Below, piece by piece: positions 56,326 through 64,000 of a stretch of DNA of 64,000 nt. Below the pieces are notes generated by a model. The model made no database searches. It was not told where the DNA came from and saw only the letters and a list, made by a program, of their open reading frames with translations. Every line of letters begins with the position of its first letter. The stretch's first letter is position 1. A program made the position numbers and the translations under genes. The stretch is from positions 1,984,001 to 2,048,000 of the forward strand of contig NZ_RAPV01000001.1 of assembly GCF_003610295.1 (NCBI RefSeq), written 5' to 3'. The DNA comes from Paraburkholderia sp. BL23I1N1 (GTDB taxonomy: Bacteria; Pseudomonadota; Gammaproteobacteria; Burkholderiales; Burkholderiaceae).

Positions 56326-56460
56326 GCTTTAGCGTGCTTCAAGGCGCGGTGTGTTTGGCGGGTATGAATGCGCGTCCGGATCAGCAAGGGCGCATGAGCA
56401 ACAAGATTTTTTAACTTGACGGGCTACGGCGTATTTGGCCGATGTCCGGAGGACATGGAA

Positions 56461-57642
56461 ATGACTGATGTTGTGATCGTATCGGCCGCCCGTACGGCAG
56501 TAGGCAAATTCGGTGGGTCGCTGGCGAAGATCGCCGCGCCCGAACTCGGCGCCACAGTGATTCGCGCCGTGCTCGAACGGTCTGGTCTGAAGCCTGAGCA
56601 GGTCAGCGAAGTCATCCTGGGGCAGGTGCTGACGGCAGGCTCGGGTCAGAACCCGGCGCGTCAGTCGCTGATCAAGGCGGGTCTACCCACGGCCGTGCCC
56701 GGCATGACGATCAACGTGGTGTGCGGCTCGGGTCTGAAGTCCGTGATGCTGGCGGCCAACGCGATCATCGCGGGCGATGCGGACATCGTGATCGCCGGCG
56801 GTCAGGAAAACATGAGCGCCGCGCCGCACGTGCTGCCGGGCTCGCGCGACGGTTTCCGCATGGGCGACGCGAAGCTGATCGACTCGATGATCGTCGACGG
56901 TCTGTGGGACGTCTACAACCAGTACCACATGGGCGTGACGGCGGAAAACGTCGCCAAGGAATACGGCATTACGCGCGAGCAGCAGGATGCGTTCGCGGCG
57001 CTGTCGCAGAACAAGGCGGAAGCCGCGCAGAAGTCGGGTCGTTTCAACGACGAAATCGTGCCGGTGGAAATTCCGCAACGCAAGGGCGAGCCGCTGCGTT
57101 TCGCAACGGACGAGTTCGTGCGTCATGGCGTGACGGCTGAATCGCTGGCGGGTCTGAAGCCGGCTTTCTCGAAGGAAGGCACGGTTACGGCGGCCAACGC
57201 GTCGGGCCTGAACGACGGCGCGGCGGCAGTGCTGGTGATGTCGGCGAAGAAGGCTGAAGCGCTGGGTCTCACGCCGCTCGCGCGCGTCAAGGCTTACGCC
57301 ACCTCGGGTCTGGATCCGAAGGTGATGGGCATGGGCCCGGTGCCGGCCTCGCGCCGTTGTCTCGAACGCGCTGGCTGGACGCCGGCCGATCTGGACCTGA
57401 TGGAAATCAACGAAGCCTTTGCCGCACAGGCGTGCGCCGTGAATCAGCAAATGGGCTGGGACACGTCGAAGATCAACGTGAACGGCGGCGCGATCGCGAT
57501 CGGCCATCCGATCGGTGCGTCCGGAGCCCGGATTCTCGTCACGCTGCTGCACGAAATGCAGAAGCGCGATGCGAAGAAGGGTCTGGCGTCGCTGTGTATC
57601 GGCGGCGGCATGGGCGTAGCGCTGGCGCTCGAGCGCGCTTAA
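56461..57642 (+). CDS. phaA: acetyl-CoA acetyltransferase (beta-ketothiolase)
   Basis: A 393-residue thiolase, the exact length of R. eutropha PhaA. Cys 88 is in [13 protein letters not shown], the His base in [17 protein letters not shown] and the second Cys in SLCIGGGMG. It condenses two acetyl-CoA to acetoacetyl-CoA. GGAGGA precedes; ATG 56461 (9 bases away) is preferred over ATG 56455. It lies 135 bases after phaC. Confidence 0.94.
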
Positions 57643-58599: not shown

Positions 58600-58733
58600 G
58601 TCATCGGCGCGCTGCTCACAAGGCGGCGTGCTTCTGCTCAGATGGTTCCGGCGGCGTCTCGACTGTGCGATTACCCGATTGCGCAGCCGGCATGACGCCG
58701 TTTCCGCGCTCAACTTGCGCTCAAAGGCGTTAC

Positions 58734-59351
58734 ATGACTACTACTACAAAGAAAACAGCCGAACGATTGATCAAGAAGTATCCGAATCGTCGACTCTACG
58801 ATACTGAGACGAGCACCTACATCACGCTGACGGATGTTAAGCAGCTCGTGCTGGATCAGGAGGATTTCAAGGTCATCGATGCGAAGAGCAACGAGGACCT
58901 GACGCGCGCCATCCTGTTGCAGATCATTCTCGAAGAAGAGAGCGGCGGCTTGCCGATGTTCTCGTCGTCGATGTTGTCGCAGATCATCCGTTTCTACGGT
59001 CATGCGATGCAGGGCATGATGGGCACGTATCTGGAGAAGAACATCCAGGCCTTCATCGACATTCAGGCGAAGCTCGCCGATCAGTCGAAGAATCTGTACG
59101 AAGGCAAGGCGATGAACCCCGAAGTCTGGTCCCAGTTCATGAACATGCAGGCGCCGATGATGCAGGGCATGATGACCAGCTATATCGAGCAGTCGAAGAA
59201 CATGTTCGTGCAGATGCAGGAGCAGATGCAGAACCAGGCGAAATCGATGTTCGCCACGTTCCCGTTCACGCCAGGTGGACCGGTGAATGCGGCTGGAGCG
59301 CCGGTCGCGCCGGCTAATCCGCAAAGCAATCCGGAGCCGGAGAAGAAGTAA
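58734..59351 (+). CDS. phaR: PHA synthesis repressor PhaR
   Basis: A 205-residue regulator. The N-terminal PHB_acc DNA/polymer-binding domain begins ERLIKKYPNRRLYDTETSTYITLTDVK. The PHB-binding repeat (MNPEVWSQFMNMQAPMMQGMMTSYIEQSKNMFVQMQ) is Met/Gln-rich, and a Pro/Ala/Asn tail follows. PhaR represses phasin and its own gene until it binds nascent PHA. ATG 58734 is chosen by homology. A GC-rich hairpin (CGCGTCCG/CGGACGCG at 59402-59422) follows without a T run. Confidence 0.93.
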   Translation: MTTTTKKTAERLIKKYPNRRLYDTETSTYITLTDVKQLVLDQEDFKVIDAKSNEDLTRAILLQIILEEESGGLPMFSSSMLSQIIRFYGHAMQGMMGTYLEKNIQAFIDIQAKLADQSKNLYEGKAMNPEVWSQFMNMQAPMMQGMMTSYIEQSKNMFVQMQEQMQNQAKSMFATFPFTPGGPVNAAGAPVAPANPQSNPEPEKK

Positions 59352-59523
59352 GCGCGTAGCGCCGTCGCCGACGTCGACTCGACGACAAGCGCGCTTCTTT
59401 GCGCGTCCGCCTCACGGACGCGACGGCCGGCTGTCCACATTGTGCTAAAGGGCGCCGGGCGCGATCGCGGCGGCCCGCGCGCCACGCGTCATGCGTCATG
59501 CACGAGCGGATGGCCGCGGGCAC

Positions 59524-59716
59524 GGTACAATTGCGGGTTGCGTTCGCTGTGTGGGGTGTGGTTCTCGTGATCCTGTTGCCTCTCAGTCCACGTTGCACCA
59601 TCCCTATTTAGCCTCGTCGTCACCGCTGTATGCCCGCCCCACATATGTCCCAGATCCTTTCCCACGCCGCGCCCACGCCTTCGATTCCGAGGGTCGGATT
59701 TGTCAGCCTTGGCTGA
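59524..59716 (+). repeat. partial duplicate of the rimO upstream region and start
   Basis: Similar to 60799-60996 in order and sequence: GGTACAAT, GGGTTGCG, a CCATCCCTATTT-like block, CGTCACCGCT and the first 23 codons. The 72 bases from the ATG are about 81% identical to the start of rimO, by my count. The resemblance stops at codon 24. Confidence 0.8.
59645..59716 (+). pseudogene. truncated rimO leader (23 codons then stop)
   Basis: ATG 59645 opens a 23-codon frame ending PTPSIPRVGFVSLG then TGA, matching 17 of the first 23 residues of RimO encoded at 60925. At codon 24 rimO has TGT (Cys) where this copy has TGA. Many of the differences are at third codon positions, as if the copy came from a related strain under coding constraint. 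It is either a remnant or a short leader peptide upstream of dus. Confidence 0.8.
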
Positions 59717-59755
59717 CCGCCGGATTCGCAAAAGCAGCTTAGGCGCCGTTCTCGC

Positions 59756-60808
59756 ATGAGCCGGCTGTTTCTTGCGCCCATGGAAGGGCTTGCGGATTAC
59801 GTGTTGCGCGACGTGCTGACCAGCACGGGCGGATTCGACGGCTGCGTGTCCGAATTCGTCAGGGTCACCGGTTCGGTGCTTCCCGAGCGTGTCTATGAAA
59901 GGGATACGCCTGAAGTCCTCCACGGCGGCCGTACACCCAGCGGTACGCCGATGGTGATCCAACTGCTCGGCAGCGATCCTGAATGGATGGCGCTGAACGC
60001 GGCCCAGGCGGCCAGTTTGTCGCCCCATGGACTCGATCTGAACTTCGGTTGTCCCGCCAAAATCGTCAATCGACACGGCGGCGGCGCGATGCTGCTGGCG
60101 CACCCTGATCAGTTGCACCGGATCGTTTCGTCCGTTCGCGCCGCGGTGCCAGCCGGTATCGCCGTGACAGCAAAAATGCGCCTCGGCGTGTCCGATACGT
60201 CGCTCGCGATCGACTGCGCCACGGCACTGGCCGAAGGCGGCGCGGCCTCCCTCGTGGTGCATGCAAGGACACGCGACCATGGCTACCGGCCGCCGGCCCA
60301 CTGGGAGTGGATCGCGCGTATCGACGCCGCCGTGCACGTGCCGGTCATTGCCAACGGAGAAGTCTGGACGGTGGCCGACTGGGAGCGGTGCCGGGCGGTC
60401 AGCGGCTGCGCGGACGTGATGATCGGGCGGGGCGCCGTGTCGGATCCATTTCTCGCCTTGCGCATACGCGGGCTGATGGACCGGACGCCTTCCGGCGAGG
60501 AATGGCCAGCCGTGCTGGGCCAGCTCGCCGGCTACCTGCGAAAGCTGCAAGCCCGTGTCGCGGCCCGTCATGAGCATGGACGCGTCAAAATGTGGCTCAG
60601 CTATCTCAAGCGGACCTGGCCGGAGGCTGCCGAACTGCATGCCGCCATCCGGCGCCTGCATGATTCGCGCGAAATTATCGAGGTGATCGAGCGCGCCCAG
60701 GAATTCAACGGCTTGATACCGGCAAATCAAAGCGCGGCCCCCGGCCTGCTTGATCCGGCAATGGCTCGCCACTTGACCGGCTGCACGCTCGGCGGCGCGG
60801 TACAATAA
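59756..60808 (+). CDS. dusC: tRNA-dihydrouridine synthase (DusC type)
   Basis: A 350-residue FMN-dependent Dus protein. It begins LFLAPMEGLADYVLRDVLT. Catalytic Cys 99 is in LDLNFGCPAKIVNRHGGGA, with VTAKMRLG and VVHARTRDHGYRPPAHW downstream. It reduces uridine to dihydrouridine in tRNA; DusC acts at position 16 in E. coli. It lies between two copies of the rimO 5' region. Its stop codon (CAATAA) overlaps TACAAT, the possible -10 of rimO. The ATG follows the rimO-like fragment by 39 bases. Confidence 0.88.
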   Translation: MSRLFLAPMEGLADYVLRDVLTSTGGFDGCVSEFVRVTGSVLPERVYERDTPEVLHGGRTPSGTPMVIQLLGSDPEWMALNAAQAASLSPHGLDLNFGCPAKIVNRHGGGAMLLAHPDQLHRIVSSVRAAVPAGIAVTAKMRLGVSDTSLAIDCATALAEGGAASLVVHARTRDHGYRPPAHWEWIARIDAAVHVPVIANGEVWTVADWERCRAVSGCADVMIGRGAVSDPFLALRIRGLMDRTPSGEEWPAVLGQLAGYLRKLQARVAARHEHGRVKMWLSYLKRTWPEAAELHAAIRRLHDSREIIEVIERAQEFNGLIPANQSAAPGLLDPAMARHLTGCTLGGAVQ

Positions 60809-60924
60809 AGGGTTGCGTGCGCGGGACGCTGTCCGGGCTCGGTCTTTATGACCATCGGACCCCTTAGCCTTGCCGCACCGTCCCCATTTGTCGCCATCGT
60901 CACCGCTATACGCCGGACCCACCT

Positions 60925-62316
60925 ATGTCGCAGACCATTTCCCCCGCCGTGCCGACCCCTTCGACTCCGAAAGTCGGTTTCGTCAGCCTCGGCTGTCCTA
61001 AAGCACTCGTCGACTCCGAACAGATCATCACGCAGTTGCGCGCCGAGGGCTACGAGATCTCCGGCACCTACGACGGCGCGGACCTTGTGGTCGTCAACAC
61101 CTGCGGTTTCATCGACGAAGCCGTGCAGGAAAGCCTCGACGCAATCGGTGAGGCGCTCAGCGAAAACGGCAAGGTGATCGTCACGGGCTGTCTTGGCGCC
61201 AAGCAGAGCGCGAGCGGCTCGAACCTGATCGAAGAGGTACATCCGAAGGTGCTGGCCGTCACCGGCCCGCACGCGCTTGGCGAAGTGATGCAGGCGGTGC
61301 ACAACCATCTGCCGAAGCCGCACGATCCGTTCATCGATCTGGTGCCGGCTGCCGGCGTGAAGCTCACGCCGCGCCACTACGCGTACCTCAAAATCTCCGA
61401 AGGCTGCAACCACCGCTGCACGTTCTGCATCATCCCGTCCATGCGCGGCGACCTCGTGTCGCGCCCGGTTGCCGAAGTGATGCTCGAAGCGGAAAACCTG
61501 TTCAAGTCCGGCGTGAAGGAGCTGCTGGTGATTTCGCAGGACACGAGTGCATATGGCGTCGACGTCAAGTACCGTACCGGTTTCTGGAACGGCAAGCCGA
61601 TCAAGACACGCATGACCGATCTGGTCGGCGCGCTCGGCGAACTCGCGGCGCAATACGGCGCATGGGTGCGTTTGCACTACGTGTATCCGTATCCGAGCGT
61701 CGATGAAGTCATTCCGATGATGGCCGAAGGTCCGTTCAAGGGCCACGTGTTGCCGTATCTCGACGTGCCGTTCCAGCACGCACATCCGGAAGTGTTGAAG
61801 CGCATGAAGCGTCCGGCCAACGCCGAGAAGGTGATGGAGCGCGTGAAGGCCTGGCGTGAAATCTGCCCCGATCTGACGATTCGCAGCACGTTCATCGCCG
61901 GCTTCCCGGGTGAGACCGAAGAGCAATTCCAGACACTGCTCGATTTCATCCGCGAGGCGGAGCTGGATCGGGTTGGCTGCTTTGCTTACTCGCCGGTCGA
62001 AGGCGCGAACGCCAACGAACTCGACGGCGCATTGCCCGACGAAGTGCGTGAAGAACGCCGCGCGCGTTTCATGCAAGTCGCCGAAGAAGTGTCGGCCAAA
62101 CGGATCGCGAAGAAGGTCGGCAAGACGCTGAAAGTGCTGGTCGACGAGATCAATGCCGACGGCGGCATCGGCCGCACGGCGGCGGACGCGCCCGAGATCG
62201 ACGGTGTCGTGTATATCGCGCCGGCTACCAAGGCGTCGAAGCGTTACAAGGTCGGCGATTTCGTTTCGGTGAAGATCACCGGCGCCGACGGCCACGACCT
62301 GTGGGGCGAGGTTTAA
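60925..62316 (+). CDS. rimO: ribosomal protein S12 methylthiotransferase
   Basis: A 463-residue radical-SAM methylthiotransferase. The N-terminal UPF0004 domain ([30 protein letters not shown]) binds one Fe-S cluster and radical-SAM Cys 161, 165 and 168 (GCNHRCTFC) bind the other; a C-terminal TRAM domain follows. It adds a methylthio group to Asp 88 of S12. It starts 116 bases after dus. The kinase gene begins four bases downstream. Confidence 0.95.
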
Positions 62317-63360: not shown

Positions 63361-64000
63361 ATGCAACGGGACGTAGTGGTGGTAAGCGGTGTGCGTACGG
63401 CAATCGGCGGTTTTGGCGGCAGTCTGAAGGATTTTCCGCCGACGGATCTCGGCGCACGCGTCGTGCGTGAAGCGCTGGCGCGCGCGAACGTGTCGGGCGA
63501 CGAAGTCGGTCATGTGGTGTTCGGCAATGTCGTGCATACCGAACCGAAAGACATGTATCTGGCCCGCGTGGCGGCGATCAATGGCGGCGTCGCGCAGCAT
63601 GCGCCCGCGTTGACGGTCAACCGCCTGTGCGGCTCGGGCTTGCAGGCGATCGTCTCGGCCGCGCAAAGCGTGCTGCTTGGCGACGCCGACATCGCGATCG
63701 GCGGCGGCGCGGAAAACATGAGCCGCGCACCGTATTCCATGCCGGCTGCGCGCTTCGGTCAGCGCATGGGCGATGCGCGCCTCGTCGACATGATGGTCGG
63801 CGCGCTGAACGACCCGTTCCAGTCGATCCATATGGGCGTGACCGCCGAGAACGTCGCGCGCAAATACGAAATCTCGCGCGAAACACAAGATGCGCTCGCA
63901 CTCGAATCGCATCGCCGCGCGGCCAATGCGATTACGAGCGGCTACTTCAAGGATCAGATCCTGCCGATCACGATTCCGTCGAAGAAGGGTGACGTCGTGT
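63361..64000 (+). CDS. bktB: beta-ketothiolase BktB, N-terminal part
   Basis: The first 213 residues of a thiolase, cut by the window end. It begins QRDVVVVSGVRTAIGGFGGSLKD, with nucleophile Cys 90 in TVNRLCGSGLQAIVSAAQ. The sequence resembles R. eutropha BktB, which prefers longer and odd-chain acyl-CoA and supplies 3-hydroxyvalerate units to PHA, more than it resembles phaA in this window. The start ATG 63361 has GGAG upstream. The active-site His and second Cys lie beyond the window. Confidence 0.88.
   Translation, partial: MQRDVVVVSGVRTAIGGFGGSLKDFPPTDLGARVVREALARANVSGDEVGHVVFGNVVHTEPKDMYLARVAAINGGVAQHAPALTVNRLCGSGLQAIVSAAQSVLLGDADIAIGGGAENMSRAPYSMPAARFGQRMGDARLVDMMVGALNDPFQSIHMGVTAENVARKYEISRETQDALALESHRRAANAITSGYFKDQILPITIPSKKGDVV

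Follow-up and report, generated by a model that had tools for sequence, protein, structure and literature searches.

The window, a 64,000-nucleotide stretch of the genome of Paraburkholderia sp. BL23I1N1, encodes phaB, phaR, a relic of the 5' end of rimO, dus, rimO and a sugar-kinase-like gene, in that order (Table 1). The dus product belongs to the Dus superfamily by its Pfam Dus domain (210.2 bits, gathering score 20.4). It scores 272.2 bits with the NCBIfam DusC model, below the cut-off of 395, although DusC is still the best of the Dus models. The dus stop codon, TAA (60806-60808), overlaps the -10-like hexamer of rimO, TACAAT (60801-60806). The insert is bounded by two attachment-core-like copies that are alike in 9 of 11 bases; dus is the sole gene between the repeats and no recombinase is encoded in the insert. 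The spacer ahead of dus has the consensus CCGTAAGATTCGCAAAA across 15 loci of the window's own clade (clade A, 16 genomes) and 7 Caballeronia loci, and its divergence (0.190) is near-neutral. Judged from their translations, frames at 56416-57642 and 63361-64000 resemble acetyl-CoA acetyltransferase paralogues.

Table 1: Features of the dus-rimO locus, with positions counted from the first base of the window.
Feature	Position	Strand	Basis
phaR, PHA synthesis repressor, left neighbour	58665..59351	+	TIGR01848, 161.6 bits (cut-off 109.45)
Stranded promoter-like block of the old rimO leader (CGGTACAAT...), ahead of dus	59523..59543	+	One of 2 exact matches in the genome
Relic rimO untranslated leader	59544..59644	+	Alignment with leader ahead of rimO
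Relic rimO start, 23 codons and TGA (MSQILSHAAPTPSIPRVGFVSLG, stop)	59645..59716	+	Frame and alignment
Left attachment-core-like copy (CTTGGCTGACC)	59708..59718	+	Repeat end; core CTCGG.TGCCC at element junctions of relatives
39-nt spacer ahead of dus	59717..59755	+	Common to most Caballeronia dus loci
dus, DusC-like tRNA dihydrouridine synthase, 350 aa	59756..60808	+	PF01207, 210.2 bits
Promoter-like block and leader now ahead of rimO, of the type accompanying dus	60798..60924	+	Leader identities, leader tree
rimO, ribosomal protein S12 methylthiotransferase	60925..62316	+	TIGR01125, 559 bits (above cut-off of 356.95)
Right attachment-core-like copy (CTCGGCTGTCC), rimO codons 22-25	60988..60998	+	Repeat end; junctions of relatives

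A second rimO 5' end upstream of dus

The repeated unit consists of the rimO promoter block, the leader and the first 23 codons, with the second copy upstream of dus. Positions 59595-59718 and 60875-60998 align without gaps over 124 nt at 79% identity, and the promoter blocks (59519-59547 and 60794-60822) at 83%; the alignment of the leader part between these matching blocks is gapped. The two copies end at 59718 and 60998. The repeat has a local alignment score of 118, compared with a mean of 19.6 and a maximum of 31 in 500 shuffles; here, as in the tests of relic scores, dus-less loci, Cupriavidus leaders and blocks, the shuffles preserve single-base composition only. The repeat described in the earlier note is therefore real, and pairwise alignment, which might have reduced it to chance similarity, places it far above the shuffles. 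Counting by eye gives the same agreement as that note between the copies, with 58 of 72 coding bases and 17 of 23 residues alike. Of the 69 sense bases 13 differ, 7 of them at third positions. The upstream frame opens at ATG 59645 and is closed by the TGA (59714-59716) that had been noted.

In the 9.1-Mb genome the promoter-block sequence CGGTACAATNNNGGGTTGCGT occurs exactly twice, in the two repeat copies. One further match has two mismatches and three have three, and the control pattern, read backwards, has six matches with up to three mismatches. A generic promoter motif is rejected as the source of the block because there are only 2 exact genome copies. A sigma-70 consensus scan found no promoter in the block, and a search for consensus promoters and terminators gave nothing past shuffle level.

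Conservation of the relic

Across the 14 other clade-A loci, the 20 nucleotides at 59512-59531, which include TACAAT, are 89% identical to the window, and the next 20 (59532-59551) are 76% identical. Two other blocks (59672-59711 and 59732-59751) are equally well kept, at 89-91%, and the remaining blocks fall at 60-83%. A related promoter block lies ahead of dus in 38 of the 57 dus loci of the genus.

The earlier note suggested that the truncated rimO start persists as a leader peptide. We consider it very unlikely that the 23-codon frame works as a peptide controlling dus, a role that would be compatible with any account of its origin. In favour of such a role, the ATG and frame are retained in 15 of 16 clade-A loci and two insertions are multiples of three. 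Invariance of the stop in 13 of these loci arises partly by construction. Divergence in codons 11-23 is 0.117, below the 0.204 at four-fold sites (0 of 2,000 samples as low), and the consensus fold (-44.9) is lower than in all 100 column shuffles (-31.8, sd 3.7). Against it, pN/pS is 0.72 for the relic coding part and 0.24 for the real rimO start. These values come from 13 of the 16 clade-A loci and 12 rimO starts; for the pN/pS and block tests we left out L010, in which the junction is absent, and L017 and L018, which have in-frame insertions. Differences are spread over the three codon positions (0.122, 0.189 and 0.175) with no third-position excess, and the shifted frames give pN/pS of 1.11 and 0.60. 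Changes in codons 11-23 are mostly nonsynonymous (25, with 11 synonymous), the start is lost in L070 and L074, and L134 has an early stop. Two small hairpins in 59675-59717, one of them across the TGA, are paired in 97% of cells. Their covariation is no higher than in shuffles (159 of 500 as high), and Rfam gave no match up to E 1. Selection on a leader peptide is thus not supported by pN/pS and codon positions, and the coding part appears, from its pattern of substitution, to be a fossil with respect to its peptide. Codons 11-23 and the two hairpins, unlike the peptide, are nevertheless better kept than neutral sites.

Distribution of the dus-rimO gene order

Matches to dus (E 1e-30) occur in 57 of 144 genomes of the genus (54 of the 137 good ones), and RimO matches (E 1e-150) in 141. 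Downstream of dus, rimO is present on the same contig in 54 of the 57, with 85-359 bp between the matches in 49 and 1.0-3.3 kb in five. The other three are G130, which stops at a contig end, G006, with rimO on another contig, and G087, in which phage-like DNA follows the rimO start. Among the best 80 of 560 loci in a scan of named relatives, phaR-dus-rimO is found in Caballeronia, Cupriavidus and Pigmentiphaga and dus-rimO in Achromobacter and Schauerella; near-identical loci are from Paraburkholderia. The earlier note held that an arrangement shared by all Burkholderiales, with a conserved leader peptide of different origin, would speak against an insertion. The gene order is indeed widespread, and no such conserved peptide was seen.

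The fetched rimO loci leave out about 40 dus-less loci of the genus. In a relic scan of 34 dus-less loci with long enough gaps, L117 alone gave a coding-start match above its own shuffles (43, compared with 31), and most other matches above shuffle level fall on the promoter directly preceding the leader of the locus itself. The scan left out loci with no recognised leader, such as L113 of G076, and so missed real cases that were found afterwards. In dus-less loci such as L051, L094, L107, L110, L112 and L117, the interval between phaR and rimO holds varied small genes, some of them toxin-antitoxin-like by eye, and mostly no detected relic.

Affiliation of the stranded leaders

We scored the region ahead of dus against 143 rimO leaders, a panel drawn from the same loci, so that the counts for the sets are not independent. 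Scores of at least 42 were obtained for 45/57 genus loci, 8/9 Caballeronia loci, 3/19 Cupriavidus-type loci and 0/24 others, and for none in any set with the reverse complement as control. At this threshold no relic was detected in 12/57, 1/9 and 16/19 loci of the first three sets. The 45 relic-positive loci of the genus comprise 24 in which the match reaches the coding end and 21 in which it covers the promoter part only. A locus's own present leader scores at least 42 against its pre-dus region in 14/52 genus, 1/8 Caballeronia, 2/14 Cupriavidus-type and 0/3 other loci.

In Caballeronia, the relics of L133, L134 and L186 score 162-174 against the leader of the dus-less Caballeronia locus L206; those of L130, L136 and L191 score 76-84 and that of L129 only 47. 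None of the Caballeronia relics scores above 42 against the leaders of dus-bearing Caballeronia. The relic of C. mineralivorans (L132) fits another empty type, with scores of 101 to L207 and 109 to L104. The group-B relics of L030, L063, L067, L073 and L074 score 83-188 against genus-type leaders and 19-22 against their own, and the signature of the present group-B leader type occurs in 44 fetched loci, which are from groups or records with dus. In Cupriavidus pampae and C. pauculus, two copies of the genome's own leader type flank dus (84/92 and 74/84 aligned bases alike), and in C. plantarum that type is found upstream of dus only. These scores show native-type leaders stranded in relatives. 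The frequent fit of the pre-dus sequence to another, native leader in place of the genome's present one suggests that dus arrived together with a new rimO 5' end, which displaced the resident one and left it stranded.

Serine recombinase elements at rimO

G139 (L080) has another truncated rimO start downstream of dus, and from there about 3 kb of genes lead up to a rimO that has a different leader again. The last gene of this insert encodes a serine recombinase (PF00239, 54 bits; PHROG integrase, 131.7 bits) and starts 44 bp from rimO. Relatives of this recombinase occur in 20 of 144 genus genomes (E 1e-15), and the three closest copies, in G139, G076 (76%) and G006 (71-73%, broken), are beside rimO. 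In the family sample a relative is present in 7 of 299 genomes (E 1e-60); the two closest, in G216 and G395, again adjoin rimO, and in G379 a broken copy lies near that gene. The remaining matches in both samples are located elsewhere. A large serine recombinase is divergent from rimO and about 30-45 bp away in G139, G076, G216 and G395, and broken in G006. Both L067 and L080 carry, between dus and rimO, another truncated rimO start followed by other genes and a further type of leader, as would result from stacked arrivals.

Both junctions, a relic and an element-borne rimO start, were found in G076, G139, G006 and G395. The stranded start and the recombinase-rimO end are on different contigs in G076 and G006. 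In G395 they share a contig, with cores 85.1 kb apart, and the rimO start of its sister G379 is uninterrupted. The relics of all four genomes read VGFVSLGCP and then stop (the G395 frame was read by eye), and the stop comes directly after the core. It has the form CCGTA(A/G)G both in the four genomes and in the consensus of clade A and Caballeronia. The repeat in the window ends at the same bases as these element junctions, so that its break coincides with the attachment core of serine recombinase elements. The post-core consensus of clade A and Caballeronia, CCGTAAGAT, equals the G395 junction, a match that is weak alone because 6 of its 9 bases also fit rimO's own CCGAAAGCC. A truncated rimO fragment of this kind is also present in L143 (C. 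pauculus). A macro-domain-like frame follows the left core in G395 (L283, L286), and DarT and macro-domain genes are in the same position in G076.

Within clade A, the present-type rimO start of G087 (L126, L240, L241) breaks after GGCTGCCC into phage-like DNA, which has anti-repressor, tail-fibre and virion-protein matches among the 10 proteins scanned per library. RimO was not found elsewhere in this draft genome, which has only a 32% relative. No element with the window's dus was found; this gene is absent from G395, G216, G379 and G076, four genomes with such elements, which have paralogues at 30-35% only. No recombinase remains in the window, and dus is a presumed cargo of such elements. 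The imported stretch of Caballeronia seems to stop near codon 14, ahead of the core, which counts against entry by this route.

History of the locus in clade A

The present leader of clade A has a mean identity of 85-91% to dus-bearing Caballeronia, compared with 64-79% to three dus-less Paraburkholderia. Those three become the closer ones from about the rimO start onward, and the switch falls at about 60895-60960. In a leader tree built with 11 of 35 dus-less loci, chosen for their TACAAT leader, the clade-A relics join the group-B relics and 3 of the 11 dus-less leaders (97/74; 95/77), and the present leaders of clade A fall with Caballeronia in a group that includes one long dus-less branch (82/92). 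The SH-aLRT of 74-77 at splits of this tree, and the fact that only 3 of the 11 dus-less leaders join the relics, count against the insertion reading given below. The dus tree groups clade A with Caballeronia and Cupriavidus (97/100), and the phaB-phaR tree recovers clade A as a single clade within Paraburkholderia (99/87). Identity of dus to the window is 87.8% in Caballeronia versus 78.8-82.0% in other Paraburkholderia groups, and for phaB-phaR it is 84.5% versus 91.1-94.1%. The dus of the window's clade thus has a foreign affinity, against which counts an AU test in which monophyly of Paraburkholderia dus was not rejected (p 0.085). In Cupriavidus, dus of L140, L143 and L144 groups with Caballeronia and clade A, not with other Cupriavidus. 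The dus-less Caballeronia locus L206 is nested among dus-bearing Caballeronia and has a native leader; it may have lost dus precisely between the repeats, or may never have had it.

Origin of the dus insert

A stranded rimO start that breaks at an element insertion spot looks like an old insertion scar at which the front end of rimO was swapped. We consider it probable that an insertion at the rimO 5' end left the dus region as its scar, with the break at the place where serine recombinase elements of relatives attach. Besides dus, the incoming DNA would have brought, on its right, a promoter, a leader and initial codons that could take the place of those of rimO, and it would have joined the resident gene at the conserved codons VSLGCP, where elements attach in relatives. 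The resident promoter, leader and 23 codons would thereby have been cut off, to stay upstream of dus, closed by a stop, and rimO would run from the imported 5' end. The anatomy of the locus is in keeping with a new promoter and start for rimO, and the old rimO promoter probably serves dus. Any recombinase would since have been lost in the window, and dus pieces are likely to have spread later through ordinary homologous recombination as well. We infer the recombinase route of dus and its use of the promoter and, tentatively, the direction of its transfer. Entry of a dus piece at the rimO 5' end with stranding of a truncated start was the first reading in the earlier note. It is supported strongly in relatives and moderately in the window's clade, and the match of the break point to an attachment site is added here.

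More tentatively, with close to an even chance, the rimO 5' end may be a recurrent attachment site across the Burkholderiaceae, where each landing strands the prior start and the dus piece is a domesticated remnant. Large serine recombinase elements, and perhaps phages, would bring a replacement rimO promoter and N-terminus, rows of relics would record the order of arrival, and the dus piece, flanked by direct repeats, would move or be lost by ordinary recombination.

No recombinase would be needed if homologous recombination within rimO, with a left end that lacks homology (homology-facilitated illegitimate recombination, HFIR), had brought in dus along with its rimO leader, and relic-bearing pieces had then spread by recombination through the short, conserved VGFVSLG stretch. 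The homology shared by unlike leaders begins near codon 16, so that junctions would cluster there, the insert has no recombinase, and the Caballeronia breakpoint lies upstream of the core. The insert joins rimO on its right and breaks at a conserved core on its left. Separate lineages break within a base or two of the element core, which makes this route rather doubtful. A single old insertion in the ancestor of the genus, followed by many losses of dus and, in clade A, by later exchange of dus and leader in place, would account for the clustering of group-A and group-B relics, the phaR-dus-rimO order in Cupriavidus and Caballeronia and the nested position of L206. It is unlikely, as the Caballeronia relics are Caballeronia-native and at least that insertion was separate. 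Local tandem duplication of dus, leader and rimO start with loss of the first dus would need no foreign DNA; the earlier note had raised a tandem duplication that later took in dus. Both clade-A copies are of genus type, which leaves room for it there, and C. pampae and C. pauculus have one leader type twice around dus. As a general account it is rejected on the mismatched leader types before and after dus in relatives (Caballeronia and group B), and the foreign affinity of dus and a clade-A relic that is not sister to its own present leader make it highly improbable.

Relationship to known systems

We found no mention of the dus-rimO arrangement in the literature searched. That rimO is a prophage target is already known from a table in PMC9658991, in which one row gives a serine-integrase prophage, J1_pp_2, in rimO of Variovorax boronicumulans J1. 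Like the elements of relatives described here, it has rimO as a serine integrase target in Burkholderiales; its listed repeat, GTCGCCGGTCTTGGCG, differs from the core found here, and its entry makes no link to dus. As described in PMC8409611, IMEVchUSA3 is an integrative element at the 5' end of dusA, and SXT is found at prfC. Elements of the IMEVchUSA3 type are about 30 kb, with an integrase and 21-bp repeats, whereas the window has one 1-kb gene and no integrase, and dus is the target in dusA elements but a passenger in the window.

At this locus a minor peculiarity of sequence leads to a site in a conserved translation gene that mobile DNA targets. Resident and incoming rimO starts can be told apart from the scars, so that donor type, break point and arrival order can be read. 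A passenger gene can gain an existing promoter while the host gene survives, and the locus offers a small, countable system for the domestication and renewed spread of element remnants.

With homology at one end only, HFIR would be able to link foreign DNA to the resident gene (PMC3240628), but its products usually have a deletion of similar size, whereas the window keeps the resident DNA and breaks at one place. In hotspots that recombine at flanking core genes, variable genes lie between two core genes, as here, but a double crossover in both flanks would give no truncated rimO start (PMC5635113). Arrays of T6SS immunity genes and orphan 3' ends of Rhs genes reflect successive arrivals with orphan pieces in a row, as here (PMC5361080); the window is the mirror image of the Rhs orphans, in that the pieces left behind are orphan 5' ends of a housekeeping gene.
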